Part shown: positions 218-14,640 of the stretch, one piece after another | How the letters are laid out: every line of letters starts with the position of its first letter | How positions within the stretch are numbered: the first letter of the stretch is position 1 | NCBI GenBank assembly: GCA_946537585.1 | Contig: CAMNFX010000011.1 | Coordinates: 1-14,640, forward strand | Direction: 5' to 3' | DNA length: 14,640 nt | Source: an uncultured Lachnospiraceae bacterium | GTDB lineage: Bacteria; Bacillota; Clostridia; Lachnospirales; Lachnospiraceae | Notes under the pieces: generated by a model | What the model was told of the DNA's origin: nothing | The model's database searches: none | What the model saw: only the letters and a program-made list of their open reading frames with translations | Made by a program: the position numbers and the translations under genes

Positions 218-922
218 TCAGCCGCCCAGGTACGCCTTCCGCACACGCTCATCCTTTGCGAGCTCGGCGCCTGTGCCGGAGAGGGTGATGTTGCCGGTCT
301 CCAGTACATAGGCCCGGTGCGCGATCGAAAGCGCGCGCTTTGCATTCTGCTCCACCAGCAGCACGGTCGTTCCCTTTTTGTTGATATCCTCGATGATGTG
401 GAAGATCTCGGACACCAGAAGAGGAGAGAGACCCATGGAGGGCTCATCCATGAGAACGATGGAGGGCTTTGCCATCAGGGCTCTTCCCATGGCGAGCATC
501 TGCTGCTCACCGCCGGAAAGCGTACCGGCCAGCTGGCTGCGCCTTTCCTTTAAGCGGGGGAAGGTCTGGAATACATCCGCAAGGTCGGAAGCGATTCCCT
601 CCTTATCCTTGCGGGAGTAGGCGCCGAGGATCAGGTTCTCCTCCACGGTCTGCTGCGCAAACACACGGCGTCCCTCCGGTACCTGCGCCAGGCCCATGTC
701 CACGATCTTATAGGGCTGGACCTTGGTGAGCTCTGTTCCGTTCAATGTGATCGAGCCGGCACTGGGCTTTACCAGGCCGGAAATGGCATGCATGGTGGTG
801 GTCTTGCCGGCACCGTTTGCGCCGATCAGGGTGACGATCTCTCCGTCATTGACCTCGAAGGAGATGCCCTTGATCGCTTCGATCATGCCGTACTGTACTT
901 TTAAGTTTTCTACTTTCAGCAC
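218..922 (-). CDS. livF: Branched-chain amino acid ABC transporter, ATP-binding protein LivF
   Basis: This is a cytoplasmic ATPase, one of the two nucleotide-binding subunits that power branched-chain amino acid uptake. In 234 residues it has Walker A GANGAGKT (about 34-41), the ABC signature LSGGEQ (135-140), Walker B IVLMDE (155-160) and a switch His in LLVEQN-type context. Length and motifs are normal for LivF. The start codon is GTG (920-922), preceded by a perfect GGAGGT at 931-936 with 8-bp spacing; no ATG is available in frame nearby. The Shine-Dalgarno begins only two bases before the livG stop codon, so the two genes are probably translationally coupled. The separation of LivF from LivG rests on the canonical signature here against the LPYGAQR variant in the neighbour. 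Confidence 0.95.
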   Translation of the reverse strand: MLKVENLKVQYGMIEAIKGISFEVNDGEIVTLIGANGAGKTTTMHAISGLVKPSAGSITLNGTELTKVQPYKIVDMGLAQVPEGRRVFAQQTVEENLILGAYSRKDKEGIASDLADVFQTFPRLKERRSQLAGTLSGGEQQMLAMGRALMAKPSIVLMDEPSMGLSPLLVSEIFHIIEDINKKGTTVLLVEQNAKRALSIAHRAYVLETGNITLSGTGAELAKDERVRKAYLGG

Positions 923-936
923 TTTTATGGACCTCC

Positions 937-1704
937 TTATTCGCCGAGATATGCCTTGATAACTTCCGGATTGTTCTGAATATCCTCCGGTGTGCCTTCT
1001 GCAAGCAGCATGCCGTAGTTCAGCACGGTGATCCGCTCGCAGATACCCATGACCAGCTTCATATCGTGCTCTATAAGGAGTACGGAGATCTTGAAATGAT
1101 CACGCACAAAGCGGATCATATCCATCAGATCGCCGGTCTCCTGAGGGTTCATGCCGGCTGCGGGCTCATCGAGCAGGAGGAGCTTCGGTCCGGAAGCTAA
1201 AGCTCTTGCGATCTCCAGACGGCGCTGGGCACCGTAGGGGAGATTGCCCGCAATGACCTCCGCCTGGTCGCCTAAGCCCAGGATCTTCAAAAGCTCCATG
1301 GACTTTTCGGTGATCTCCTTTTCCTGCTTTCTGAAGGCAGGAAGACGAAGCACTGCGGTCAGAGGGGAGTAGGTGATCGTGTTGTGGTAGCCGATCCGGA
1401 CATTGTCGAGTACGGAAAGGTTATTGAAAAGACGGATGTTCTGGAAGGTACGGGCAATGCCGGCCTTGTTGGTCTCAACGATGTTTTTGGAGGCGATGTT
1501 CTCGCCGCAGAAGATGATCTCACCGCGGCTCGGCTTATATACATGGGTCAGCATGTTGAAGACCGTGGTCTTGCCGGCGCCGTTCGGACCGATCAGGCCC
1601 ACGATCTCGCCCTCATAAACATCCAGATCCAGGCCGTTGACTGCGGTAAGGCCGCCGAAATCGATGCCTAAGCCGCGCACCTTCAGGATGTGCTCTCTGC
1701 TCAT
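937..1704 (-). CDS. livG: Branched-chain amino acid ABC transporter, ATP-binding protein LivG
   Basis: This is the second ATPase subunit of the liv importer, 255 residues. Walker A GPNGAGKT lies at 39-46. The LivG-type signature LPYGAQRR is at about 155-162 (the family normally carries Y-G-x-Q-R instead of SGGQ, so this is not a defect). Walker B LLLLDE is at 175-180, and a LIEHDM switch-His motif is near residue 216. The ATG at 1702-1704 directly abuts the livM stop codon (TAA at 1705-1707). The GGAGG site that serves it lies inside the last codons of livM, so translation of livG should be coupled to livM. It would dimerise with LivF under the LivH/LivM membrane pair. Confidence 0.95.
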   Translation of the reverse strand: MSREHILKVRGLGIDFGGLTAVNGLDLDVYEGEIVGLIGPNGAGKTTVFNMLTHVYKPSRGEIIFCGENIASKNIVETNKAGIARTFQNIRLFNNLSVLDNVRIGYHNTITYSPLTAVLRLPAFRKQEKEITEKSMELLKILGLGDQAEVIAGNLPYGAQRRLEIARALASGPKLLLLDEPAAGMNPQETGDLMDMIRFVRDHFKISVLLIEHDMKLVMGICERITVLNYGMLLAEGTPEDIQNNPEVIKAYLGE

Positions 1705-2778
1705 TTAAGCTGCCTCCTTTCTGCTGTCTGCCTGTTTGGACCGGATCGATTTGAACCAGGTCTTGAGATGCTCATTGTTGGTGATCAGCATGATGACGAT
1801 CAGGACAACGGCATAGATCAGCATACGGTAGTCCTGCAGGGAACGTAAGAGCTCCGGAAGCAGGACGAGGACCACGGTGGCGATCATCGTGCCGTTCATA
1901 TTGCCGAGGCCTCCAAGCACCACATAGACAAGAATGAGGATGGAGGTGTTGAAGTCAAATTTATTGGGAACCAGTGTGGAGTAGTTCAGGCCGTACAGAG
2001 CGCCTGCGGCACCTGCAAGGCCTGCGGAGACCACAAAGGAAAGCATTTTCGTATTCGTGATATTGATGCCGGAGAGCTCCGCGGCAATGCGGTTGTCTCT
2101 GGCTGCCATGATGGCACGGCCGCTCTTGGACCAGATCAGGTTGTAGATGATCATCAGAGCGATCAGTACCAGGATCACGCCGGCCGTAAAGGTGGCGATC
2201 CTCTGGGTGCCGGTAGCGCCCATGGGGCCGTTTAAGAGCATCTTGCCGCCGGGCGCAAGCTCGGTGGTGTTCTGCACAAAGCTGAACTGGAAGCCGTTCT
2301 CATCAAAGCCTAAGTACATGTTGGTGATGATGCTCTTGATGATCTGGCCGAAGGCGAGAGTCACGATCGCAAGATAGTCGCCCTGGAGCTTTAAGACAGG
2401 GATGCCGATCACAAGTCCGAAGATGACAGCCACGAAAGCGCCTCCGATCAGTGCGATTGCGAGACGCAAAGGCGCAGCCGGGATGGATGCCGCGAGATAT
2501 CCGGAGATACAGACCGCGGTAAAGGCGCCTACGCTCATGAAGCCGGCCTGGCCGAGGTTCAGCTCGCCGGAGATGCCGACGTTTAAGTTCAGGCCCAATG
2601 CTGCGACCATATAGCAGGTGATCGGGACCAGAAGTCCCGCGATCAGACTGGAAACATGCCCTCCGCGCTGCAGCACGGTCAGGATGATCCAGGCGGCGAC
2701 CACGAGGGTATAGGAGATCGTACGTCCTTTGTGACGTTTATTAAGGAGTACAGACAGGATATTCTTATTCGACTTCAT
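1705..2778 (-). CDS. livM: Branched-chain amino acid ABC transporter, permease LivM
   Basis: This is an inner-membrane permease of 357 residues that forms the translocation pore with LivH. It is strongly hydrophobic, with roughly eight to ten membrane segments. The family hallmark GLNLNVGISGELNLGQAG occurs at about 62-79, and the late GGLGNMNGT loop and following LLPELLR segment near residue 290 are the cytoplasmic coupling region that contacts the ATPases. The N-terminus is basic and the C-terminus ends in a charged tail. The ATG at 2776-2778 has an AGGAG site 7 bp upstream in the 15-bp gap after livH. Nothing is truncated or unusual. Confidence 0.95.
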   Translation of the reverse strand: MKSNKNILSVLLNKRHKGRTISYTLVVAAWIILTVLQRGGHVSSLIAGLLVPITCYMVAALGLNLNVGISGELNLGQAGFMSVGAFTAVCISGYLAASIPAAPLRLAIALIGGAFVAVIFGLVIGIPVLKLQGDYLAIVTLAFGQIIKSIITNMYLGFDENGFQFSFVQNTTELAPGGKMLLNGPMGATGTQRIATFTAGVILVLIALMIIYNLIWSKSGRAIMAARDNRIAAELSGINITNTKMLSFVVSAGLAGAAGALYGLNYSTLVPNKFDFNTSILILVYVVLGGLGNMNGTMIATVVLVLLPELLRSLQDYRMLIYAVVLIVIMLITNNEHLKTWFKSIRSKQADSRKEAA

Positions 2779-2793
2779 ACTGCGACTCCTTTC

Positions 2794-3669
2794 TTATACT
2801 TTCTCGCTGAGCTTTCTGCCGAGCAGACCGGTGGGCTTGATCAGCAGAACGACGATCAGGACGGCAAACACAATGGCATCTGAGAGCTGGGTGGAGATAT
2901 AGGCCTTCGCCAGGATCTCGATGATGCCGAGCAGCAGTCCTCCGAGGAAGGCGCCCGGGATCGAGCCGATGCCTCCGAAGACCGCAGCGGTAAATGCCTT
3001 GATGCCGGGCATGGCGCCAAGGGTGGGGAATACCGAAGGATAGGTGGAGCAGAGCAGTACCGAAGCGATGGCTGCAAGCCCCGAACCGATGGCAAAGGTC
3101 ACGGAAATGATGAAGTTGACATTGATGCCCATCAGGATGGCTGCGCCCTTATCTTCGGAACAGGCCCGCATGGCCCGGCCGGTCTTTGTCTTGTTGATGA
3201 AGGTCGTAAGGACAGCCATGATCAGCAGACAGACGCCGATCGTGATCAGCGTGAGCCAGGAAATGGAAAAACCTCCGAGCGTCAGGGAGCCGGACGGCAT
3301 TGCCGAGGGGTAGACCTTGGTCGCGGAGGTCCAGAGAAGCTGGGCTCCGTTCTGCAGGAAATAGCTGACGCCGATCGCCGTGATCAGGACAGCCAGGCTG
3401 GACGCCTGACGGAGAGGCTTGTAGGCAAGCTTTTCGATCACAACGCCTAAGATGGTGCAGCAGATAATAGCCAGCAGAGTTGCGGGAATGATGGGCAGTC
3501 CGAAATTCATCAGCGCGAAGAAGGAGATATAGGCGCCGATCATGATAACGTCACCATGGGCAAAATTCAGCATCTTCGCGATACCGTAGACCATGGTATA
3601 ACCCAGGGCAATGATCGCATAAACACTGCCAAGGCCCAGACCGTTGACCAGATAAGATATAAATTCCAT
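2794..3669 (-). CDS. livH: Branched-chain amino acid ABC transporter, permease LivH
   Basis: This is the partner permease of LivM, 291 residues, with about eight membrane segments. Characteristic elements are GLGLGSVYAIIALGYTMVYG at the N-terminus, MLNFAHGD (33-40, the conserved N-x-x-H-G motif of LivH proteins) and the C-terminal GGIGSIPGAFLGGLLLG coupling loop near residue 236. The ATG is at 3667-3669 with an AAGGGA-like ribosome binding site about 8 bp upstream. It is separated from the upstream binding-protein gene by 145 bp that contains a strong inverted repeat, whereas the four downstream liv genes are packed within 0-15 bp. This suggests the membrane complex is expressed as a block at a level set apart from the binding protein. 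Confidence 0.95.
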   Translation of the reverse strand: MEFISYLVNGLGLGSVYAIIALGYTMVYGIAKMLNFAHGDVIMIGAYISFFALMNFGLPIIPATLLAIICCTILGVVIEKLAYKPLRQASSLAVLITAIGVSYFLQNGAQLLWTSATKVYPSAMPSGSLTLGGFSISWLTLITIGVCLLIMAVLTTFINKTKTGRAMRACSEDKGAAILMGINVNFIISVTFAIGSGLAAIASVLLCSTYPSVFPTLGAMPGIKAFTAAVFGGIGSIPGAFLGGLLLGIIEILAKAYISTQLSDAIVFAVLIVVLLIKPTGLLGRKLSEKV

Positions 3670-3696
3670 GTTGCGGTTTCCCTTCAGTAAGATAAA

Positions 3697-3752
3697 GCCG
3701 GTGCCGGGGGTGAGCAGGCGGCAAAAGCCAGGCTGACAACTCCGGCACCGGC
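3697..3752 (-). terminator. Intercistronic stem-loop between the binding-protein gene and livH
   Basis: Perfect 11-bp GC-rich arms GCCGGTGCCGG (3697-3707) and CCGGCACCGGC (3742-3752) flank a 34-nt loop that itself can form a small GGC-TTTT-GCC hairpin. On the minus-strand transcript the stem is followed by TTTATCTTA, which is only moderately U-rich. A partial terminator or an mRNA-stabilising 3' structure fits best, allowing more binding protein than permease to be made. Confidence 0.7.
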
Positions 3753-3814
3753 AGCAAAATGTGCCTAAGAAGGTTGATGAAACAGTTTGAACTTCAGGAC
3801 TTCTCTACAGAGGA

Positions 3815-5053
3815 TCAGTCCTCAACGCCGACGTAAACGCCGTCCTTGATAACTACGGCCTTCGGAGCCTTGGAGACTTCACCGGTCTCAGACCAGGTCA
3901 TGTCCTGGCCGGTCAGACCATTGAAGGTCATGGAGGTGAACTGCTTTACAAGAGCATCACAGAACTCGGACGGGCTCTTGCTTGCATCAAGACCTGCAGC
4001 ATCCACTGCCTGAGCGATCGCATAAACGCAGTCATAAGCATCGGCTGCGAACTGGTTCGGAACCTCACCGGTCTTCTCCTGATACTTCTTGACAAAGTTC
4101 TTGGTAAGATCGTCGGAAGCGTCAGCAGAGAACGGAGTCAGAAGATAAACGCCCTCTGCAAGAGAGGTATCGAAGCCTTCGAGGGTCAGGATGCCGTCCA
4201 TACCATCGTTGCCGAAGAAGGTCGGTGTATAGCCCTCTGCAGCTGCCTTGGTCAGGATCAGGGAAGCCGGCTCATAGTAGATCGGAAGGTAAACAACATC
4301 AGCGCCCGCTGCCTGGCACTTCTGGATCTGTACGGAGAAGTCGGAAGCGTTGGAATCGTCGAAGGTACCCTCGTAGACGATCTCAAGATTCTTGACAGCA
4401 GCCTCGGCCTTGAATTTTGCGAAGATACCGCTGGAGTAGTTATCATCGTTCTTGTAGATGACAGCGATCTTGGAACCGAGATCCGGATGAGCTGCAAGGT
4501 AGTCCGCACTTGCGACACCCTGGTTGGGGTCGGTGAAGCACATCTGGAAGACATTGCCGAACGGATTTGCGGAGTTGTCGGGATCCTCGTAGATAACTGC
4601 GAGAGAAGAGCCTGACGGGGTGATGGCAAAGATGTGGTCATCCTTGTACATCGGAGCTGCAGCAGCGCCGGGAGCACTGGTGACGGTAGCAAGAGATGCC
4701 TGCATACCCCAGTCCTTTAAGATGCCGTAAGCAGTGACAGCCTTTTCCGGGTCATGCGCGTCATCCTCGAACTTCAGCTCAAACTGCTGGCCGCCCTTTG
4801 CATTGATCTCCTCGACGGCGATCTCGGCAGCGGTCTTGACTGCAGTGCCGTAAACGGCTGCGCCGCCGGTTAAGGGGCCGGAACCGCCGATCTTGATCGC
4901 GGCGGAGGAGCCTTCAGAAGAACCGGAGTCAGCAGCCTGAGCTGCTGCAGTCGTTGACGAAGTGGAGCCTGATGAACCGCAGGCAGCAAGAGAAGCTGCC
5001 ATCACAGCGGCTAAAGTAAGAGCAAATGCTTTTTTAAATGAAAGATTTCTCAT
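3815..5053 (-). CDS. livJ: Branched-chain amino acid ABC transporter, substrate-binding lipoprotein
   Basis: This is an extracellular binding protein, tethered by lipid to the membrane, that captures the amino acid for LivHMGF. In 412 residues it has a basic N-terminus (MRNLSFKK), a hydrophobic core and the lipobox LAAC with the lipidated Cys at residue 25. A Ser/Gly/Ala-rich linker follows, to about residue 50. The rest is a periplasmic-binding-protein fold of the Leu/Ile/Val family (starting IKIGGSGPLTGGAAVYG, then A-x-x-A-V-E-E-I-N-A-K-G-G). The ATG (5051-5053) has AGGAGG at 5064-5069, 10 bp upstream. It is the first gene of the operon and has its own strong promoter. Substrate specificity (Leu/Ile/Val or another neutral amino acid) cannot be read from the sequence; livJ is used here as a family name. 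Confidence 0.92.
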   Translation of the reverse strand: MRNLSFKKAFALTLAAVMAASLAACGSSGSTSSTTAAAQAADSGSSEGSSAAIKIGGSGPLTGGAAVYGTAVKTAAEIAVEEINAKGGQQFELKFEDDAHDPEKAVTAYGILKDWGMQASLATVTSAPGAAAAPMYKDDHIFAITPSGSSLAVIYEDPDNSANPFGNVFQMCFTDPNQGVASADYLAAHPDLGSKIAVIYKNDDNYSSGIFAKFKAEAAVKNLEIVYEGTFDDSNASDFSVQIQKCQAAGADVVYLPIYYEPASLILTKAAAEGYTPTFFGNDGMDGILTLEGFDTSLAEGVYLLTPFSADASDDLTKNFVKKYQEKTGEVPNQFAADAYDCVYAIAQAVDAAGLDASKSPSEFCDALVKQFTSMTFNGLTGQDMTWSETGEVSKAPKAVVIKDGVYVGVED

Positions 5054-5239: not shown

Positions 5240-6412
5240 TCAGAATTGGGCCGCGAAATCATCGGGAGCAGGGAAGGGTGCGGGATCGTAGGTCTTGGCG
5301 GCTTCCTGTCCGCTTAAGGCACGGTATGCTCCCTTGGCAAGAGCCACCATCTCGTACTCGCCCGGATAGAGATAGACGGGTGCGAGGAAGCCTGCATACT
5401 CCTCGATCTTTTCGACGAGGAACTTGGAACGGGCGAGTCCGCCGGTGAGGATGATCGCATCGACCTGGCCCTTTAAGGCGATCGCGTTTTCTCCGATACT
5501 CTTGGAGATCTGGTAGGCCATGGCTTCGAGGACGAGTGCCGCAAACTGGTCGGTCGTTGCCTTCTCCTCGATCACACGTACGTCATCGGTGCCGAAGTAG
5601 CTGACGAGGCCGCCCTGGCCGATGCAGTGCTTGATGACCTCGGATTTGGTGTATTTTCCGGAGAAACACATGTCGATCACGTCGCCGAAGTTCATGGTGC
5701 CGGCACGGTTGGGAGAGAAGGCGCCCTGACCGTCGATACAGTTGTTGACGTCGATACATTTGTTTGCGCGGTGCGCGCCGATGCTGATGCCGCCGCCCAT
5801 ATGGACAACGATGACATTGATATCAGTCACATCCACGTCGAGGTCTCTTGCAAGACGGCGGATCACGGCCTTCTGGTTTAAGGGATGCCATTTTGCGTGG
5901 CGGGAGAAGCCTTTGACGCCTGTGATCTTAGCCACGGGGACCATTTCGTCCACGCAGACCGGGTCTACGGTATACGCGGGAATGCCAACGGAGTCGGCGA
6001 TCTCCTTGGCGATGATGCCGCCGAGGTTGGAGGCATGCTCGCTCCACGGGTGCTTCAGATCCTCGACCATGCGGTCGTCAATGAGATAGGTGCCGCTTTC
6101 TACAGGCTTCATGTATCCGCCGCGGCCGACAACGGCATCGAGCGTATGGATATCGATCTCTTCCTTCTCCAGAGTCTCCAGGATCGCCTTCTTGCGGTAT
6201 TCAAGCTGATCAAGGGTCACATCGGAAAACTGCTTTAAATCCTCCGGGTCATGGGAGACCGTGAGCGTTTTCAGGCAGTAGTTATTCTGGAAGAGGGCGA
6301 TCTTGGTGGAAGTGGAGCCCGGATTGATGACCAGGATGTTGAAGAGCTTGTGATTTCGAAGGAGCGCAGGCTCGTGGACGGATTTCTTCGGTGCGGATTT
6401 GCTGTTCTTCAT
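5240..6412 (-). CDS. buk: Butyrate kinase family acyl kinase
   Basis: This is a cytoplasmic enzyme that transfers phosphate between an acyl phosphate (butyryl-, isobutyryl- or propionyl-phosphate) and ADP to make ATP. The ASKHA-fold phosphate-binding motif INPGSTSTK is at about 29-37. Butyrate-kinase signatures follow: VDPVCVDE, HPLNQKAV, VVHMGGGISIGAH, GQGAFSPNRAGT, and LTGGLARS near the C-terminus. The protein is 390 residues, against about 355 usual. The difference is mostly a basic extension of some 20 residues before the ATP-binding motif, plus a short Pro-rich tail. The ATG at 6410-6412 is preceded by GAGGT (6421-6425) at 8 bp; the frame stays open upstream, but that part overlaps the promoter. 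No phosphotransbutyrylase gene is in the window. Position beside threonine dehydratase suggests use on propionyl-phosphate or branched acyl-phosphates; this is inference. Confidence 0.93.
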   Translation of the reverse strand: MKNSKSAPKKSVHEPALLRNHKLFNILVINPGSTSTKIALFQNNYCLKTLTVSHDPEDLKQFSDVTLDQLEYRKKAILETLEKEEIDIHTLDAVVGRGGYMKPVESGTYLIDDRMVEDLKHPWSEHASNLGGIIAKEIADSVGIPAYTVDPVCVDEMVPVAKITGVKGFSRHAKWHPLNQKAVIRRLARDLDVDVTDINVIVVHMGGGISIGAHRANKCIDVNNCIDGQGAFSPNRAGTMNFGDVIDMCFSGKYTKSEVIKHCIGQGGLVSYFGTDDVRVIEEKATTDQFAALVLEAMAYQISKSIGENAIALKGQVDAIILTGGLARSKFLVEKIEEYAGFLAPVYLYPGEYEMVALAKGAYRALSGQEAAKTYDPAPFPAPDDFAAQF

Positions 6413-6458
6413 GATGTCAGACCTCGTTTTCTTAAATCCGGAAACTATGTGTGATTGG

Positions 6459-6500
6459 CTGCTTTTATCATAGATGAAAAAGCAGTTCCTTTCAAGGAAC
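6459..6500 (-). promoter_or_regulatory. Tandem inverted repeats in the buk leader
   Basis: The first repeat is GTTCCTT-GA-AAGGAAC (minus-strand reading, 6485-6500), which abuts the -10 box and spans the predicted start site, so it could be an operator. The second has perfect 8-bp arms CTGCTTTT/AAAAGCAG (6459-6466 and 6478-6485) with an 11-nt loop, in the transcribed leader. The two share base 6485, so they could form tandem or competing hairpins. Confidence 0.55.
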
Positions 6501-6529
6501 ATCATAGACACGAAATGATTTGAAGTCAA
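6501..6529 (-). promoter_or_regulatory. Sigma-A-type promoter of buk
   Basis: On the minus strand, TTGACT (6524-6529) and TATGAT (6501-6506) are separated by 17 bp. The start site would be near 6494, giving a leader of roughly 80 nt. It lies just downstream of the symporter terminator, so buk is an independent unit. Confidence 0.8.
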
Positions 6530-6551
6530 GAAGCTTGCACGCAAAGCATTG

Positions 6552-6593
6552 TACAAAAGAAGGAGCGCTTCCCGGAAGAGGAAAGCGCTCCTT
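6552..6593 (-). terminator. Rho-independent terminator after the symporter gene
   Basis: Arms 6580-6593 and 6560-6573 form a 14-bp stem on the minus-strand RNA (AAGGAGCGCTT perfect, then one G-U pair and two G-C pairs) with a 6-nt loop, followed by CTTTTGT. Flanking GTACAA/TTGTAC can extend the stem. It begins about 30 bp after the symporter stop codon. Confidence 0.88.
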
Positions 6594-6622
6594 TGTACAG
6601 CCTGTACTGTACTTATAGGGGA

Positions 6623-7816
6623 TCAGGCCTTTTTCTTGTTGGTGATCGCATCCATCAGCATTGCGATAGCACCGTCGCCGGTGACGTTGCAGGCAGTACC
6701 GAAGGAGTCCTGTGCGATGTACAGAGCGATCATCAGGGTGAGCATGTTCTCGTTGAAGCCGAGCATGCTCTCAAGGATACCGAGTGCAGCCATAACTGCG
6801 CCGCCCGGAACACCGGGTGCTGCGACCATGGTAACGCCCAGCATCAGGATGAACGGGAACATCTGGCCGAAGGTGACCGGCCATCCGTTCAGCATCATGA
6901 CAGCGATGGAGCAGCTGGTCAGGGTGATGGTGGAACCGGACAGATGAATGGTAGCGCAAAGCGGAATAACGAAGTCAGCGATCTTGGAAGAGCAGCCGTT
7001 CTTCTTGGTGCACTCCAGAGTGACCGGGATGGTAGCAGCAGAAGACTGGGTGCCGATTGCGGTCATGTAAGCCGGAATCATGTTGCGGATCATACCGAAC
7101 GGGTTCCTCTTTGCGAAGGTACCGGCTACAGTGTACTGGAAGATGATAATGATGATATGCATGCAGATGATGATGACGAAGACCTTTGCGAAAACGCTCA
7201 TGATCTCGGCAACGGTGCCTGCATAGGTCATGTTTGCGAAGATACCATAGATATGGAAGGGTAACAGCGGGATCAGAACGCCTGCTACAACGCCTTCGAC
7301 GATCTTCTGGAACTCATGGAAGATGTTTCTTAAATGCTCGGAGTTGGTGACCGCGATGCCGATACCCATGATGAAGGAAGTGATCAGAGCGGTCATAACG
7401 CCCATCAGCGGAGGCATCTCTACGGTGAACAGACCGGAAAGCATGGTATCCTCAGCGTTCTGTGCGTTGTCCATGACGATGGAACCGAACTTCAGGAAGC
7501 TCGGGAAGAGCACGGAGTCTACGCAGAATGCGAAGGAACCGGAGATCAGGGTGGAAATGTAGGCAACGCCTGCGGTCAGAGCCAGGGTCGCGCCTGCGCC
7601 TGCGCCCAGGTCAGCAATACCAGGAGCGACGAAGCCGATGATGATCAGCGGAATACAGAAGCTTAAGAAGTTTCCGAAAATGCTGTTGAAGGTCGCGCCG
7701 ATGCGGATGATGATCGGAAGATTTGCGCTGCGGGCGATGGTACCGACGACAAGACCGAGTACAATGGCGATCACCAGCTTGGGCAGCAGACCGATTTTCT
7801 TTTTGCCAGTTGACAT
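6623..7816 (-). CDS. Sodium:neutral amino acid symporter (DAACS/SstT-like)
   Basis: This is a multi-pass secondary transporter of the dicarboxylate/amino acid:cation symporter family, 397 residues, in the cytoplasmic membrane. Family landmarks are: N-terminal KKIGLLPKL before TM1; the HP1 serine motif QSSAATIPVTL (257-267); TM7 IHLSGST (290-296) where glutamate transporters have NMDGT; HP2 GVPGGAVMAAL (335-345); and TM8 with NVTGD (377-381). Aligned by eye to GltPh, Asp394 is kept (D370) and the sodium-site Asp405 is kept (D381). The carboxylate-binding Arg397 is Gly373, which argues for a neutral substrate such as serine or threonine. The ATG at 7814-7816 is preferred although the frame is open for 60 more codons upstream, because homologues begin near KKKIGLLP and that upstream stretch is not membrane-protein-like. 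It follows threonine ammonia-lyase and has its own terminator. Confidence 0.9.
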   Translation of the reverse strand: MSTGKKKIGLLPKLVIAIVLGLVVGTIARSANLPIIIRIGATFNSIFGNFLSFCIPLIIIGFVAPGIADLGAGAGATLALTAGVAYISTLISGSFAFCVDSVLFPSFLKFGSIVMDNAQNAEDTMLSGLFTVEMPPLMGVMTALITSFIMGIGIAVTNSEHLRNIFHEFQKIVEGVVAGVLIPLLPFHIYGIFANMTYAGTVAEIMSVFAKVFVIIICMHIIIIIFQYTVAGTFAKRNPFGMIRNMIPAYMTAIGTQSSAATIPVTLECTKKNGCSSKIADFVIPLCATIHLSGSTITLTSCSIAVMMLNGWPVTFGQMFPFILMLGVTMVAAPGVPGGAVMAALGILESMLGFNENMLTLMIALYIAQDSFGTACNVTGDGAIAMLMDAITNKKKA

Positions 7817-7825
7817 GATTACTTT

Positions 7826-7863
7826 CCTTCCGCGGGCAGTGCGTTTTGCGGAAGGCCCCTCCT
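7826..7863 (-). promoter_or_regulatory. Symporter ribosome binding region with an intervening hairpin
   Basis: A perfect AGGAGG (7858-7863) is followed after 2 nt by a perfect 8-bp stem, CCTTCCGC and GCGGAAGG (7848-7855 and 7826-7833, loop 14 nt), and then by 9 nt to the ATG. If the stem forms, AGGAGG sits an effective 11 nt from the start. If it opens, AAGGA in the 3' arm (7824-7828) sits 7 nt from it. Confidence 0.6.
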
Positions 7864-8022
7864 TTTCTTTTTTCTGGTAACCGGTTTCTTTCCGGCTACA
7901 TTTGATGATTATATCTGTTACTTCTTCTGATTCCTGCAGGTGCCTGAAAGCCCGCAGCTGAACCGAAAAAGCGACATTCATGGTTAAAAAATACACCGGA
8001 CCGATGTAAGGATCGCTTCGGT

Positions 8023-8104
8023 AAAAAAGGATGGGGGAGCCGGATTGCCGGCGGATGCGCTTTAAGATGCAGTATATCTTTGATATCTGTCAGCAGCGGC
8101 TCCC
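8023..8104 (-). terminator. Possible attenuator upstream of the symporter gene
   Basis: On the minus-strand RNA, GGGAGCCG (8097-8104) can pair with CGGCTCCC (8035-8042) across 54 nt, with TTTTTT at 8023-8028 six bases after the stem. The same 3' segment can instead form the local hairpin GCCGG-CAAT-CCGGC, so the two folds exclude each other. A small CAG-ATATC-AAA-GATAT-A-CTG stem lies inside the large loop. Confidence 0.4.
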
Positions 8105-8160
8105 GCGTATTGGGTTTTGCACCGGTCAGAACCGGTACTGGGGATGGGTTAATGAAGCTG

Positions 8161-8193
8161 TTGAATGATCAGACGGAATGGGTGATCATTCAA
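8161..8193 (-). repeat. 11-bp inverted repeat over the ilvA stop codon
   Basis: Perfect arms TTGAATGATCA (8161-8171) and TGATCATTCAA (8183-8193) have an 11-nt loop, and the ilvA stop codon (8186-8188) lies inside one arm. No T-run follows on either strand, so it is not a classical terminator; it may stabilise the ilvA mRNA end or serve as a protein site. Confidence 0.6.
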
Positions 8194-9382
8194 GGATGCG
8201 ATATCCGCGGTTTGCCATCTCCTCACGGATCTTCTGGATATGAGCCTGATCGCGGGTCTCCAGGGTCAGAGTGACGACACAGGAGTTGACCTCGGTCTTG
8301 GCATCCTCACGCTCATGCTCGATATTCAGAACATTGGCACCGGTATCGGCAACGCAGCTAAGAAGCTGAGCAAGGTTGCCGGCCTTATCGATCAGCTTGG
8401 TGGAAAGCTGTACGATACGTCCGGTCTTCTGCAGACCCTTGGTGATGATACGGGAAAGGGTGGTGATATCGACATTGCCGCCGGAAACCAGAGCGACCGT
8501 CTTCAGGGAGGTGTCGACCTTGTTGAAGAGGTAAGCGGCTACGGAGGTAGCACCTGCGCCCTCGGCTACGGTCTTCGGACCCTCGAGCAGTGCGACGATG
8601 GCAGCTGCGATCTCATCCTCGGATACGGTGACGATATCATCAACATACTTGGATACGATTTCGTAGGTCAGATCGCCAGGGGTCAGAACATGGATACCGT
8701 CTGCGATGGTAGCGCCGTCCTTGACAGTGGTGATCTCACCGTTTCTGCGGGAAACATACATGGACGGAACGGTAGCAGCCTGTACGCCGATGACCTTGAC
8801 GTTCGGACGCATGGACTTGATGGCTACTGCAACGCCGGAGATGAGTCCGCCGCCGCCGATCGGAACGATGACCTGATCCACATCCGGGACCTGATCGAGA
8901 ATGTCCAGACCGATGGTACCCTGGCCTGCAATGACATAGGGATCATTGAACGGATGAGCAAAGGTGTAGCCCTTTTCCTTGGAAAGACGCTCAGCCTCTC
9001 TTGCAGCATCATCATAGATGCCCGGAACCAGAACGACCTCAGCGCCGTAGCCTCTGGTAGCCTCGACCTTCAGGATCGGTGCGCCCTCCGGCATGCAGAT
9101 GACGGACTTGATGCCCAGCTTGGTAGCGGAAAGAGCAACGCCCTGCGCGTGGTTGCCTGCAGAGCATGCGATGACACCGCGCTTTGCTTCCTCGGGAGTG
9201 AGAGAGCGGATCTTGTTGTAAGCGCCGCGGATCTTAAAGGAACCGGTCTTCTGCAGGTTCTCTGATTTAATGTAAAGATTTTTGCCCAGACGGGTGGAGG
9301 TGACCATGGGAGTGAGCTCAGCAACTCCCTTCAGTGCTTCCCTTGCATCCTGGATCATTTCCAACGTGACTTTGTTTTCCAT
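8186..9382 (-). CDS. ilvA: Threonine ammonia-lyase (threonine dehydratase) with ACT domain
   Basis: This PLP enzyme deaminates threonine to 2-oxobutyrate and ammonia (and serine to pyruvate). It has 398 residues. The fold-type II domain covers about 1-320, with the PLP Schiff-base lysine in GSFKIRG (K50), the ACSAGNHAQG loop (72-81), the phosphate-binding GGGGL (176-180) and SGGNVD (300-305). A single ACT domain covers about 322-398, starting GRIVQLSTKL. This is the medium-length TdcB-like form, not the 500-residue biosynthetic IlvA with its longer regulatory region; the ACT domain is expected to give allosteric control. The ATG at 9380-9382 has GGAGG (9393-9397) 10 bp upstream. It lies divergent from a LysR regulator and upstream of a neutral amino acid carrier, which favours a catabolic role; tdcB would be an equally fair name. 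Confidence 0.95.
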   Translation of the reverse strand: MENKVTLEMIQDAREALKGVAELTPMVTSTRLGKNLYIKSENLQKTGSFKIRGAYNKIRSLTPEEAKRGVIACSAGNHAQGVALSATKLGIKSVICMPEGAPILKVEATRGYGAEVVLVPGIYDDAAREAERLSKEKGYTFAHPFNDPYVIAGQGTIGLDILDQVPDVDQVIVPIGGGGLISGVAVAIKSMRPNVKVIGVQAATVPSMYVSRRNGEITTVKDGATIADGIHVLTPGDLTYEIVSKYVDDIVTVSEDEIAAAIVALLEGPKTVAEGAGATSVAAYLFNKVDTSLKTVALVSGGNVDITTLSRIITKGLQKTGRIVQLSTKLIDKAGNLAQLLSCVADTGANVLNIEHEREDAKTEVNSCVVTLTLETRDQAHIQKIREEMANRGYRILE

Positions 9383-9411
9383 GACAGATTGTCCTCCGAA
9401 TAAAAATGCAT

Positions 9412-9461
9412 AGGCAACATTTGTGAAATTCTTTATGAAACAAAGGAAATCACGGTTGCCT
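9412..9461. repeat. Inverted repeat in the ilvA/LysR divergent region
   Basis: Arms AGGCAAC (9412-9418) and GTTGCCT (9455-9461) enclose a smaller TTTGT/ACAAA pair (9420-9424, 9440-9444). The repeat sits immediately downstream of the predicted ilvA start site, so it could be a LysR operator or a leader hairpin. The LysR T-N11-A consensus is too loose to confirm it. Confidence 0.4.
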
Positions 9462-9474
9462 TTTTGTTAAATTT

Positions 9475-9502
9475 AATATATCATAATTTACAAATAAATC
9501 AA
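9475..9502 (-). promoter_or_regulatory. Predicted promoter of ilvA
   Basis: On the minus strand, TTGATT (9497-9502) and TATATT (9475-9480) are 16 bp apart in a very AT-rich stretch. The start would be near 9467, giving a leader of about 85 nt. AT-richness makes chance matches likely. The divergent LysR promoter must also lie within 9462-9620 but could not be placed with confidence. Confidence 0.45.
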
Positions 9503-9636
9503 ATTCATGGTTTTAATCAATTTAATAAAATTACTTAAATACAAAATACATAGAAATACAAAATCTGTCTGTGCCGCAGCTTCATATGGCATGCGGACAG
9601 ATTATCCCCAAAACTGACTTAACGCAGGAGTTTATC

Positions 9637-10515
9637 ATGGAGATCCGTCAGCTACAGACTTTCATCAAGGTGGTTCAGTTCCAGAGCTTTTCCAAGGCAG
9701 CAGAGAGCCTTGGATACAGCCAGTCTGCCGTAACGATCCAGATCAAGAACCTCGAGCAGGATCTGAACACGCATCTCTTTGACCGCATCGGAAAGCGGGT
9801 CTCGCTCACGCCGCAGGGAGAGCGCTTCTTAAGCTACGCCTATAATATTATTAATGAATTGAATCATGCCAAGGTGGCGCTTGACGACAGCCGAGAGCTG
9901 ACCGGATCCTTAAGGATCGGTACGGTAGAGTCCCTGTGCTTTTCCAAGCTGCCGGCAGTCTTAAACAAGATGCGTGAGCTCCATCCGAAGGTGTCGATCC
10001 GGATCACCTCTACGACACCGGAGGCAGCTTTGGAGATGATGGAGCACAACGAGGTCGATCTCGTCTATATTCTGGATGACCCTCATTATGACAGCAACTG
10101 GCATAAGGCGATGGAGGTCCCGGAGGATATCGTCTTCGTCTGCTCCCCGGAGTACGCGATCACAAGGCAGGTCGAGATCCGGGCAGCCCAGCTTCTCAAA
10201 TACCCCTTTATGCTGACGGAGAGGGAAGCCAGCTACCACCGGCGCCTTTCCCAGATGCTTGCCTCGAAGAACCTTCTCTTAGAGCCTTTCCTGGAGATCA
10301 GCAACACGGAGTTCATCATCCAGATGCTAAAAGCCAGCGGCGGCGTATCGCTGCTGCCGTATTTTACAGTGGAAAAGCACATCCGGGAGGGCAATCTTGC
10401 GCTGCTCGATGTAAAGGATTTAAGCATCACGATGTTTCGGCAGATCTTCTTTCATAAGGAAAAATGGGTCACCTCCGAAATGGAGGAGTTCATCCGGCTC
10501 GCAAAGGAAGGGTAA
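9637..10515 (+). CDS. LysR-family transcriptional regulator
   Basis: This is a DNA-binding regulator of 292 residues. The N-terminal winged helix-turn-helix is clear: EIRQLQTFIKV, then SFSKAAESLGYSQSAVTIQI (about 18-37) and the wing LFDRIGKRVSLTPQG (48-61). A linker helix and a periplasmic-binding-protein-like effector domain follow (about 90-292, starting GSLRIGTVESLC). The start at ATG 9637-9639 is chosen because AGGAG (9626-9630) lies 6 bp upstream and the LysR fold begins there; an upstream ATG at 9571 adds 22 residues without family character. It is transcribed divergently from threonine ammonia-lyase over a 254-bp AT-rich gap, the usual arrangement of a LysR regulator with its target. 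The effector is unknown; threonine, serine or 2-oxobutyrate are inferences from context. Confidence 0.93.
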   Translation: MEIRQLQTFIKVVQFQSFSKAAESLGYSQSAVTIQIKNLEQDLNTHLFDRIGKRVSLTPQGERFLSYAYNIINELNHAKVALDDSRELTGSLRIGTVESLCFSKLPAVLNKMRELHPKVSIRITSTTPEAALEMMEHNEVDLVYILDDPHYDSNWHKAMEVPEDIVFVCSPEYAITRQVEIRAAQLLKYPFMLTEREASYHRRLSQMLASKNLLLEPFLEISNTEFIIQMLKASGGVSLLPYFTVEKHIREGNLALLDVKDLSITMFRQIFFHKEKWVTSEMEEFIRLAKEG

Positions 10516-10803: not shown

Positions 10804-12423
10804 ATGAAGCTGACATTTATCGGCGCGGACCACGAAGTGACGGGCTCCATGCACCTGGTGGAGACTTCGGATACAAAGATCCTGATCGACTGCGGCATGG
10901 AGCAGGGAAAGAACATTTATGAAAATGCGCCCCTTCCCGTGAGCTTCAAGGAGATCGATTACCTGCTTCTGACGCATGCGCACATCGACCATTCCGGCAT
11001 GATCCCCTATGCTTATCTGCAGGGCTTTCGCGGGACCGTATTAACGACGAGCGCCTCGATGGATCTCGATGCCATCATGCTTTTGGACAGCGCGCATATC
11101 CAGGAGCAGGAGGCGGAGTTCGCCAACCGCAAGGGAAAGCGGGCCGGCAAGGATGAGGTGAAGCCCGCCTATACGGTGGAGGACGCAAAGAAGTGCCTCG
11201 AGCACTTTAAGGAGGTCCCGTACCATAAGGAGATCAAATTAAGTGATACGGCGAGAGCGCGTTTCGTGGACGCCGGGCATCTATTGGGATCCGCATCCAT
11301 TGAGCTCTGGGTCCGTGAGACGAAGGGAGCGGAAGAGAAAAAGCTGGTGTTCTCCGGTGATATCGGAAACTTCAACAAGCCTCTCATCCGGGATCCGGAA
11401 TACATTACGGAAGCCGACTATGTGATCATGGAATCCACCTACGGAAACCGCCTGCATGAGCCGGGACTCGATCATCTTGAGGATTTGAGGCGCATCGTGC
11501 AGGAGACCTTTGACCGCGGCGGAAACGTGGTGGTCCCGGCATTTGCCGTGGGACGCACCCAGGAGCTTCTGTACCTGATCCGGCAGCTCAAGGAGCAGAA
11601 CCTGATCAAAGGCTTCGATCATTTTCCGGTCTTCGTGGACAGCCCGCTGGCTGCAGAAGCAACGAGGGTATTCCACGAAAACCTCACGGAGTGCTTCGAT
11701 GATGAGACAAAGGCACTGGTGGAAAAGGGCATCAACCCGATCGTATTTGACGACCTTACCTTAAGCATCACGACGGAGGATTCCACCGCGATCAACTTCA
11801 ACCAGACGCCGAAGATCATCCTGGCTGCGGCAGGCATGTGCAACGCGGGACGTATCCGCCACCATTTAAAGCATAACCTCTGGCGCCCGGAGTGCTCGGT
11901 GGTCTTTGCCGGTTATCAGGCGGAGGGAACGCTCGGCCGCATGCTGCAGGACGGCATCGAGCGGGTCAGGCTCTTCGGAGAGGACATTATCGTCAGGGCG
12001 CACATCGAGACCATGCGTGACATGAGCTCGCACGCGGATATGAACGGGCTCATCGCCTGGGCCTCCTCCTTCGGAGATCTCAACGGGAAAGGACGCATTT
12101 TCCTTGTACACGGCGACGACGATGCAATGGCCAACCTCTCGGAAAAGCTGCGCCAAAGCACGGGCAACGTCGTCGACTGCCCCTACAGCGGGTCGGTCTT
12201 CGATCTGACCGCCAACGAATGGGAGTATGTTGCGGAGCCTGTCCTTTATCAGAAGCAGACCGCGGTGCAGATCCGCAACGATGCCGTGACCAATGACCTG
12301 CTGGATGCGTTCAATCAGCTGAAGGCAGTCGTGGAAAGGGCATCCGAGGGAGCAAACGACGACAAGAAGAAATTTGCGGAGGCGATCCGCAAGCTGGCAA
12401 AGAAATACGCATACCCGGATTAA
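10804..12423 (+). CDS. Metallo-beta-lactamase fold / beta-CASP RNase (CPSF-like)
   Basis: This is a predicted zinc-dependent ribonuclease of the CPSF/Ysh1-like group, 539 residues, cytoplasmic. The MBL zinc motifs are present: THAHIDHSG (H58, H60, D62, H63), DAGHLLGSA (H159) and FSGDIG (D186). The beta-CASP motifs are also present: acidic motif A in [10 protein letters not shown] (E210), [11 protein letters not shown] (244-254), motif B His in RIRHHLKHN (353/354), motif C His in MSSHAD (410), then a final LVHGDDD (His436). The catalytic set appears complete. No N-terminal KH domains are present, unlike archaeal aCPSF1. The last 85 residues form a charged, Lys-rich helical tail (ending [10 protein letters not shown]) beyond the RMMBL region. 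ATG 10804 has AAGGAG (10791-10796) at 7 bp. It is 41 bp ahead of RNase HI on the same strand. Substrates are not predictable from sequence. Confidence 0.92.
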
Positions 12424-13266: not shown

Positions 13267-13349
13267 GTGAGGAACGGTAGGACCGTGCATGAAGAGGGAT
13301 GCGGGCGCTGCCTGTTTATGTGTGTTATAAAATGATTCAGGAGAATAGC

Positions 13350-14640
13350 ATGCTAATGCGGCAAAGCAAAACCGAATATGGAAGAAAAAGCCATTCGGCA
13401 TTTGTTTTCGGCATGCCGGCGCTGCTTCTTGGCATGCTTTTGCTGCTGTTTTCCTTTTGCACATATGCAGATACGCTGAATGTGGTCATTCCCTATGACC
13501 AGCTGTGGGTCACGGACAGCGCGAGGGCAAACGGAACGTTCCACTATACGATCGCCCCGACCGGCGGCAGCCCGGCTCCTTTGGAAGCAGCCGGTGACGG
13601 CATTTACAGTTTTGCGCTGACCGGGAACGTGCAGGGAGAGCTGAGGCTTAACGTGCCGTTTGATCGTCAGGGATATTATACCTACCGCTCTGCCGGGCTC
13701 AGCTCAGAGACGCGGGGAAACTATACGGCATCCTCTGAAACCTATGACATTACGGTGACAGTCCAGTATGCGGCGGAAGGCATGCGTGTCGCAAGTGTCG
13801 TGATGGGGAACTCCAAAGGGACCAAGACCGACAGAATGTACTACAGCGTGAGCTACACCGGCTCCGGCGGAGGAGGCGGCGGAGGAGGTTCCGGCGGCGG
13901 AGGAGGCGGCCCGACAGGACCCGGAGGACCGGGCGGCCCCGAAGGAACCCCGGGAACCGAACCGGGCACACCCGAAGAGGAGCCGATCGTTGCGGGTGCT
14001 GCGAGAAGCACGATACAGACGCTTGCAAATACCGTCGGAAGAACGGCCGGAGAGCTGATCGGGTATGTGCAGGGTCCGGGACCGGCATCTCCGGGAGGAA
14101 ATGAAGGTCCGCAAACTTCCGGTGAGACACAGGGAGACCCGCAGTATATCGCACCGGCGAACCGCCCGCAGGAGACAACGGCAGTACAGATCACGGAACC
14201 GGATGTTCCGCTTGGCCCGGGTCCCGGAAGGGGAGCCTGGGCGCTGTTCAATCTCCTTTGCCTGATCGCGACGGCACTAGAGTTTATCATCGGCATTATC
14301 CTGCTGCGCAGAAAGAAGCAGGAGGAAGATGACGAGGAGGTACAGAAAAAGCTCGAGGGTCTGACAGGAGAAGCTCTGGAGGCCATGGAGCAGAAGCTCA
14401 AAGAGGAGCGGGAAGCCTATGAGGAGCGGGAAAAGAAGCTCTGGAAGAAGCGCAGACGCTGGAGAGCTGCCGGCATACTGCCTGCTGCAGCCTCGATCAT
14501 CCTCTTCATCCTGACGGAGGATATCCGTCTTCCAATGATCTGGATGGACCGCTGGAGCATCTGGATGTTCATTATCTTCGTTATTGAGACCCTGATGTTC
14601 TTCCATTCCCGTTATAAGGAAGTGGAGCAGGAGCTCGAGG
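13350..14640 (+). CDS. Membrane-anchored surface protein with a Spy0128/FctA-like domain (no stop before right edge)
   Basis: 430 codons are open to the window edge. The ATG at 13350 has AGGAG (13339-13343) at 6 bp. Layout: signal peptide, hydrophobic about 17-37 with likely cleavage after TYA (38-40). Then a beta-rich domain of about 41-170, with the pattern VPFDRQGYYTYRSAG followed by ASSETYDITVTVQYAAEG, like streptococcal pilin Spy0128/FctA domains. Then a Gly tract (173-187) and a Pro/Gly/Glu-rich stalk. TM1 is at about 297-319. A charged, probably helical cytoplasmic segment (320-372, KKQEEDDEE to KKRRRWR) follows. TM2 is about 373-389, then TEDIRLP and a short outside loop, then TM3 about 402-418 and a charged tail. 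There is no LPxTG motif, so anchoring is by membrane segments, not sortase. The function is unknown; adhesin or cell-envelope sensor are possibilities only. It has its own promoter region. Confidence 0.85.
   Translation, partial: MLMRQSKTEYGRKSHSAFVFGMPALLLGMLLLLFSFCTYADTLNVVIPYDQLWVTDSARANGTFHYTIAPTGGSPAPLEAAGDGIYSFALTGNVQGELRLNVPFDRQGYYTYRSAGLSSETRGNYTASSETYDITVTVQYAAEGMRVASVVMGNSKGTKTDRMYYSVSYTGSGGGGGGGGSGGGGGGPTGPGGPGGPEGTPGTEPGTPEEEPIVAGAARSTIQTLANTVGRTAGELIGYVQGPGPASPGGNEGPQTSGETQGDPQYIAPANRPQETTAVQITEPDVPLGPGPGRGAWALFNLLCLIATALEFIIGIILLRRKKQEEDDEEVQKKLEGLTGEALEAMEQKLKEEREAYEEREKKLWKKRRRWRAAGILPAAASIILFILTEDIRLPMIWMDRWSIWMFIIFVIETLMFFHSRYKEVEQELE

Follow-up and report, generated by a model that had tools for sequence, protein, structure and literature searches.

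The stretch of DNA analysed here (the window, 14,640 bases) is the whole of contig C11 in the genome of a gut Lachnospiraceae bacterium, which is 59% complete. It carries a threonine ammonia-lyase gene, tdh, and an SDF/DAACS-family carrier gene, sdf, the leader of which holds a putative hairpin-bridged ribosome-binding site. The genes lie in the order livF-livG-livM-livH-livJ (-), buk (-), sdf (-), tdh (-), lysR (+), and are followed, 3' of lysR, by a beta-CASP nuclease gene, a ribonuclease HI gene and a surface-protein gene. No tRNA gene is found in the window, and no known RNA family reaches its gathering threshold there. The locus had originally been predicted to be a rebuilt counterpart of E. 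coli tdcABCD, with lysR, tdh, sdf and buk serving the fermentation of threonine to propionate. The four genes are where that prediction had placed them, and the family models agree with their assignment to a LysR regulator, an ACT-type threonine ammonia-lyase, an SDF/DAACS carrier and a butyrate-kinase-family protein (Table 1). The evidence presented below, however, makes a different interpretation likely as a whole, namely that tdh and sdf form a threonine/serine import-deamination cassette, that buk is independent of it, and that sdf is translated via a hairpin-bridged Shine-Dalgarno sequence (SD).

Table 1. Coordinates, strands and basis of assignment of the features in the window
Feature	Coordinates	Strand	Basis
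lysR, LysR-family regulator, divergent from tdh	9637..10515	+	PF00126, PF03466
tdh-lysR divergent intergenic region	9383..9636	.	alignment with G001, G013; promoter-like matches
tdh, threonine ammonia-lyase, medium form, C-terminal ACT-like region	8186..9382	-	TIGR01127
sdf hairpin-bridged ribosome-binding site, putative	7817..7865	-	leader comparison, folding, covariation
sdf, SDF/DAACS-family carrier, probably for neutral amino acids (threonine/serine)	6623..7816	-	PF00375, residue motifs
terminator-like hairpin, 14 pairs, sdf/buk gap	6560..6593	-	fold z = -5.9
buk, butyrate-kinase-family acyl kinase, probably a coincidental neighbour	5240..6412	-	TIGR02707; neighbourhood not kept
livJ-livH-livM-livG-livF, branched-chain amino-acid type ABC transporter, downstream of buk; context only	218..5053	-	family models

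The tdh product matches TIGR01127 with 491 bits (cut-off 378.75) and is 51% identical to E. coli TdcB over 315 amino acids; the ACT_4 match of its C-terminus (23.6 bits) is under the cut-off of 27 for that model. It is the sole good threonine ammonia-lyase found in the source genome. The lysR product has HTH_1 and LysR_substrate matches. Its open reading frame (ORF) spans 9571-10515, beginning with GTG at 9571, and the start is placed at the probable ATG 9637 because relatives have the same start. As predicted, lysR (+) is divergent from tdh (-). The closest relatives of the cassette are found in G001 and G013, two genomes of the same genus, where tdh is 94 and 93%, sdf 96 and 93%, and lysR, in the same position, 84 and 82% identical, respectively. 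Alignment with these two genomes reveals a conserved AT-rich block in the tdh-lysR intergenic region (about 9456 to 9560), which contains promoter-like matches on both strands, at 9456-9484 (+) and 9502-9475 (-), these being consensus matches only.

The sdf product matches PF00375 with 307.3 bits. Its ORF starts at 7996, and the ATG at 7816 is taken as the probable start because relatives begin with the same MSTGKKK. The carrier had been described as of DAACS/SstT type. The DAACS part of the description holds and the SstT part does not, for the score against the SstT equivalog model (NF010151) is 90.1 bits with a cut-off of 308, and identity with E. coli SstT is 24% over 320 amino acids. TdcC gives no BLAST match to the sdf product at E <= 10, and PF00375 is the only carrier family assigned to it. 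At the substrate site, the sdf product has a glycine in 'QDSFGT' where an EAAT1 construct has an arginine in 'LDRFRT', an arginine which binds the substrate carboxylate. The motif 'QDS..TA.N' is common to the sdf product and E. coli SstT. Since the acidic-site arginine is lacking and the SstT motif is present, a neutral amino acid is favoured as the substrate, and the presence of tdh and of L-serine dehydratase genes (sda) suggests that this is threonine/serine.

The neighbourhood of sdf may be followed further in 34 sdf loci taken from named genomes, in which genes within 6 kb were considered (L058 and L059 are the G001 and G013 contigs). Many of these loci end at contig ends, so that the presence counts are lower limits, and the family searches covered a minority of the flanking genes. 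A tdh gene lies within 6 kb of sdf in 18 of the 34 loci. When sdf is at least 70% identical, the proportion is 17/22; two of these 22 (L063 and L077) are without upstream sequence, and three (L080, L085 and L090) have 6 kb upstream with no tdh there. Genes of the RidA/TdcF type occur near sdf in 12 loci, L-serine dehydratase genes (TdcG type) in eight, and pyruvate:ferredoxin oxidoreductase genes in four, the last being strong matches in three Kallipyga-type loci and a weak one in L068. Near sdf there is no acyl kinase, Pta (phosphotransacylase) or formate-lyase gene in any of the 34 loci, nor any TdcC match in a tblastn search of the same loci. lysR is kept with tdh-sdf in just two, those of G001 and G013. 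In G001, genes for an iron-sulfur L-serine dehydratase (TIGR00719, TIGR00718) separate lysR from the beta-CASP gene, and in G013 they adjoin lysR. They are missing in the window between the end of lysR (10515) and the start of the next gene (10804), where RidA is absent from the locus as well; a PF03313 gene, present in 22 of the 25 genomes of the genus, was not found in the incomplete source genome.

The conserved unit is thus best read, from these neighbourhoods, as the tdh-sdf pair, variably joined by RidA and an iron-sulfur serine dehydratase. The SDF carrier would import threonine and/or serine, and the pyridoxal-phosphate-dependent (PLP) lyase encoded by tdh would convert the amino acid to 2-oxobutyrate (or pyruvate) and ammonia, while the flanking lysR may control the cassette. 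The uptake and deamination steps of the original prediction are to this extent upheld as the likely role of the pair. No description of a tdh-sdf-RidA-sda cassette was found in the open-licence literature searched.

Some particular arrangements were also observed around the pair. In Kallipyga-type loci (L070 952-4515, also L071 and L072), pyruvate:ferredoxin oxidoreductase and RidA genes lie directly upstream of tdh-sdf, the oxidoreductase gene being full length in L070. In G114 (L031 7807-11934), tdh, sdf, a RidA-like match and a second tdh-like gene occur in this order. The tdh-sdf gap of the window (7820-8185) is 366 nt long, compared with approximately 180-215 nt in G001 and G013. It folds more strongly than its shuffles (z = -4.9), and apart from short matches beside sdf it has no match in the compared loci of other genomes. 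A RidA remnant within this gap was rejected, as tblastn with three RidA proteins gave no match.

The leader of sdf has a strong SD, AAAGGAGGG, at 7865-7857 (-), which is 40 nt from the ATG. The spacer forms a hairpin with its 5' arm at 7855-7848, its loop at 7847-7834 and its 3' arm at 7833-7826, leaving 9 nt to the ATG. Of the 24 core sdf loci, 21 have a distant SD with a spacer hairpin, 19 of them identified by rule and two (L067 and L068) by eye. This core was delimited once the leaders were already known; it coincides with a clade of 22 rows in the sdf tree (95/97) to which L085 and L090, absent from that tree, are added. The raw SD-ATG spacing in the 21 loci ranges from 23 to 40 nt (S. 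D. 4.94). After subtraction of the hairpin, the residual spacing is near-constant, at 8-12 nt with a mean of 10.0 (S. D. 0.95). There are 16 different arm pairs, each being the predicted fold of its spacer, and about 12 of the stems are clearly different. Compared with 1000 shuffles per spacer, the hairpins of 20 of the 21 loci give p <= 0.03, and that of L067 gives p = 0.09. Outside the core, the SD is 3-8 nt from the ATG in 14 of 15 sdf genes, including L078 and L079 (67-68%), and no good SD was found in the remaining one, L086. The tdh genes have their SD at 6-9 nt in 15 of 17 cases. In a rule-based scan of 440 ORFs of at least 200 amino acids in the compared loci, the thresholds of which were chosen with the sdf leaders already known, 12 split-site candidates emerge, 10 of which are sdf. 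A covariance model built from the 21 sites recovers them (E up to 0.04), and its next match in 57 sources is no better than E = 0.65; because the sites are the training set, this result speaks for specificity only.

Pairing in the stems was counted in a MAFFT alignment (A1) and a model-fitted alignment (A3), with 20 distinct rows and 122 pair cells. In both, 81.1% of the cells are paired, and changes on both sides are seen in six of the seven pairs and in 18 cells. The number of paired cells, the number of double-changed cells and the covariation score are matched by none of 500 shuffles, which are, however, blind to relatedness. When the partner column is slid by 1-3 columns, the score falls from 0.330 to 0.078-0.166. 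The sdf leaders thus combine a distant SD, a stem kept by compensatory changes and a near-constant residual spacing. It appears from these comparisons that the hairpin pulls a too-distant SD up to the sdf ATG. The tail of the 16S rRNA would pair with the distant SD, and the folded spacer would be looped out so that the ATG comes to lie about 10 nt from the SD. L064, a close relative without the hairpin, has a weaker SD-like stretch at 10 nt (-7.1 kcal/mol versus about -12 kcal/mol for the bridged sites), as expected if the hairpin with a distant SD is interchangeable with a plain SD.

Several observations nevertheless weigh against the interpretation of the leader, in addition to the post hoc sorting of the core set and the blindness of the shuffles to relatedness. 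The number of pairs changed on both sides is matched by 11 and 8 of the 500 shuffles in the two alignments, and that of further pair types by 27 and 33; in one stem pair, six cells are unpaired and none is double-changed. The counts are lowered by the misalignment of several stems in A1. The hairpin is lacking in L064, L065 and L066, which place an ordinary SD at 7-10 nt before the ATG, and in L068 a further SD-like stretch lies at 4 nt. When more of the surrounding sequence is folded, some pairing of the SD is seen in several loci (mean unpaired 0.35-0.96), the start codon of L060, L068, L085 and L090 is for the most part paired (unpaired 0.05-0.11), and L076 does not favour its hairpin (0.06). 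An open in-frame start also exists inside the spacer in six of the 21 loci. Other points bear on the cassette as such. tdh is not in the available flank of L076, L080, L085 and L090, where sdf is 64-88% identical, and absences in the source genome are weak evidence because of its incompleteness.

Two other functions of the hairpin were tried and rejected. It is not an intrinsic terminator, for the stem is not followed by a T-run in any of the 21. An alternative start inside the hairpin is ruled out in 15 of the 21 loci and remains for six.

The fourth gene, buk, belongs to the butyrate-kinase family (TIGR02707, 476.6 bits, cut-off 289.1). It had been called a butyrate-kinase paralogue. The family is correct, but paralogy finds no support, since buk is the only gene of this type found in the source genome, where it occurs beside one ackA. 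Among 116 genomes, 22 have an sdf relative, 35 a butyrate-kinase gene and ten both (E <= 1e-30), and in only one of these ten, the genome of the window itself, are the two on one contig. The sdf-buk junction is known from a single metagenome-assembled contig. Seven of the 25 genomes of the genus, the source genome included, have a buk relative at E <= 1e-60. An orthologue (91%) is present in one of the 24 other congeners, G024, and the other matches in the genus are 38-45% identical. In the family (397 genomes), a single other match reaches E <= 1e-115, at 49% identity. The relatives listed from a search of 5.8 billion proteins comprise four at 88-89% (P0002-P0005, from metagenomes) and one at 62%, the rest being at most 54%. 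In G024, the orthologue lies between a PilT-type ATPase gene and an MntP-like gene (labels by eye). The same genome has the livJ closest to that of the window in the genus (86%), with its liv genes on a separate contig and no buk beside them. A partnership of buk with liv was rejected, since G024 has them on separate contigs (C2 and C51).

The 81-nt stretch containing the terminator-like hairpin between sdf and buk folds at -34.2 kcal/mol. Promoter-like matches, again consensus matches only, are located 3' of this hairpin at 6529-6501 and 6495-6467. They agree with the promoter that had been predicted for buk, and to them is added the terminator-like hairpin, which the prediction did not mention. 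No phosphotransbutyrylase (ptb) partner is present among the window genes. Of the two PF01515 matches in the source genome, the good one is the Pta on another contig, and the other is under the cut-off. Because its neighbourhood is not kept, and because of the terminator-like hairpin and its own promoter-like matches, buk is best taken as an independent gene, probably a chance neighbour of tdh-sdf.

Other butyrate-kinase genes adjoin phosphotransbutyrylase-like and 2-oxoacid oxidoreductase-like genes (L042 6789-14155 and L043 263-4666, by eye), an arrangement that is lacking at the window buk. Two butyrate-kinase relatives, P0006 and P0008, have 597 amino acids, which is about 240 above the usual length, with no further Pfam domain listed.

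The functional tdcABCD analogue, in which threonine would be converted to propionate with buk as the propionate kinase, is distinctly unlikely on this evidence. The order of the genes does match that of E. coli, where tdcA is, however, co-directional, in contrast to the divergent lysR of the window. Propionate is accepted by a Buk-family kinase that is linked to a branched-chain 2-oxoacid oxidoreductase (PMC13285125), and the source genome has 2-oxoacid:ferredoxin oxidoreductase genes and Pta. A tdcB-like gene is also a neighbour of ackA in Roseburia (PMC7478625). Nonetheless, the prediction had itself named a loss of this adjacency in relatives as refuting it, and for buk the loss is observed. 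The gene is not beside sdf in G001 and G013, where convergent liv genes come after sdf, nor in any of the 34 loci, many of which are cut by contig ends. With no acyl kinase near sdf at any of them, the placing of the kinase as the tdcD counterpart and of the four genes as a unit finds no support. Moreover, the terminator-like hairpin splits sdf from buk, and the G024 orthologue keeps other neighbours. Of the traits of a tdc-type operon, a lyase with an adjacent carrier is present, and a TdcC-family carrier, a conserved propionate kinase and TdcE are not; no pyruvate formate-lyase (PFL) or TdcE-type 2-oxobutyrate formate-lyase was found near sdf in the 34 loci or in the incomplete source genome. 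That genome has its own ackA, and the acetate kinase of C. difficile is reportedly active on both acetate and propionate (PMC13285125). In the same paper, kinase substrates follow the adjacent oxidoreductase (propionate, isobutyrate and isovalerate for a branched-chain enzyme, arylacetates for others), so that the neighbouring threonine lyase does not fix the substrate of buk. By analogy, activity of the buk kinase on propionate is possible. The oxidoreductases of the source genome comprise one PorA-like protein (453 bits, under the cut-off of 550) and two that are over their cut-offs, one VorB and one of the indolepyruvate type. Judging from these genes together with Pta and AckA, the genome could possibly make propionate from threonine without buk. 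It is also unlikely that tdh is a biosynthetic threonine deaminase for isoleucine with an importer merely beside it. The ACT-like C-terminus would suit such a role, and tdh, beside which the genome gave no other good threonine ammonia-lyase, could serve isoleucine synthesis, which is a further point against the import-deamination interpretation. On the other hand, relatives add L-serine dehydratase and RidA genes to the pair, and the Kallipyga-type loci add pyruvate:ferredoxin oxidoreductase.

As to the leader, the hairpin might be an mRNA-processing or stability element, with the adjacent SD serving a start codon inside the hairpin. This is a rather doubtful alternative. It could draw on the six loci with an open in-frame start in the spacer, and on the position between two co-directional genes, where processing hairpins can occur. 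The other 15 loci, however, have no such start, and any start codon 3-12 nt past the SD is seen in just three of the 21, one being out of frame and two being closed by an in-frame stop. The protein homology starts at or near the downstream ATG. Furthermore, a processing element would have no need for a near-constant residual spacing, yet this is kept while the lengths of stem and loop vary. Under the preferred interpretation of a hairpin-bridged site, there is some slight chance that the hairpin acts as a switch of inverse logic, in which the folded state is ON and opening by a protein, an ion, a temperature shift or a competing RNA would silence the importer and leave the lyase untouched. If true, gut Firmicutes would possess a conserved class of translational control of the type 'folded = ON'.

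In the sdf tree, a group of 10 rows (100/96) unites the window, G001 and G013 with seven rows that carry the labels Clostridia, Clostridiales or Oscillospiraceae; other SDF genes of the same genus (G006, G015 and G017) are grouped far from it. In the tdh tree, these rows are again close by, with weak support. Among the 397 genomes of the family, sdf with more than 50% identity is found only in the genome of the window (matches to E 1e-85). Such grouping and rarity point to lateral transfer, and the tdh-sdf pair appears, from the trees, to have moved between lineages of Clostridia, including Lachnospiraceae and Oscillospiraceae. Against this stand records labelled Lachnospiraceae with sdf at 67-78% (L078, L079, L080 and P0200), so that patchy native descent is an alternative to transfer. 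In G006 and G017, a lysR relative (49 and 53%) adjoins the SDF gene of the genome itself, in G017 also with a serine dehydratase; lysR may therefore be native, and tdh-sdf may have arrived later. In G017 (L033 9400-11617), the SDF gene that adjoins lysR and the serine dehydratase matches in two pieces, and may be broken.

Beyond lysR, the beta-CASP/MBL protein (10804-12423) reaches 393 bits against the type VII CRISPR Cas14 model, which has a cut-off of 800, and 262 bits against aCPSF1, for which the cut-off is 580. Because both scores are too low, it is more likely an ordinary RNase-like relative. The surface protein (13299-14639) has a FILTED domain and a Gly/Pro-rich stretch, and runs past the contig end.

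Comparison with known systems corrects a tempting operon analogy. The cassette is similar to E. coli tdcABCDEFG in having a LysR gene, a threonine ammonia-lyase and a carrier, to which relatives add a TdcF-type RidA and a TdcG-type serine dehydratase. It differs in the divergent LysR gene, in the ACT-like region of the lyase, in the family of the carrier, and in that no propionate kinase or formate-lyase gene is kept nearby. The conserved partners are thus RidA-type and serine-deamination genes and not an acyl kinase, and propionate should not be predicted from the window locus. With SstT, the serine/threonine:Na+ symporter, the carrier shares the Pfam family, the QDS..TA.N motif and the lack of the acidic-site arginine; in contrast, its low identity and its score under the SstT cut-off indicate that it is not an SstT equivalog. 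Roseburia resembles the window in having a threonine lyase near an acyl kinase within Lachnospiraceae, the tdcB-like gene being reported near ackA in all Roseburia genomes studied (PMC7478625). Here, in contrast, a Buk-family gene takes that place, and is beside tdh-sdf in this genome only.

The threonine-related gene thrS of E. coli is repressed by its own synthetase via tRNA mimicry, whereas no tRNA-like loop was noticed by eye in the sdf leader. The likeness lies in the ribosome, which accommodates a hairpin within the split binding site of thrS (PMC3936740). This gene and T4 genes 25 and 38 (PMC3014915) are the experimental split-site cases found. In T4 genes 38 and 25, a stem-loop reduces the SD-AUG spacing from 22 to 5 nt and from 27 to 11 nt, respectively, and initiation falls when the structure is destabilised; the corresponding values for the sdf leaders are 23-40 and 8-12 nt. 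The sdf leader resembles these phage genes, and may be regarded by analogy as a chromosomal instance of a split ribosome-binding site. It differs from them in belonging to a chromosomal carrier gene of several bacterial lineages with many different covarying stems; no hairpin-bridged site before an SDF gene was found described in the open-licence literature searched. With about 12 clearly different stems and one near-constant residual spacing, the sdf leader offers a naturally replicated test of whether SD spacing is read through a folded spacer.

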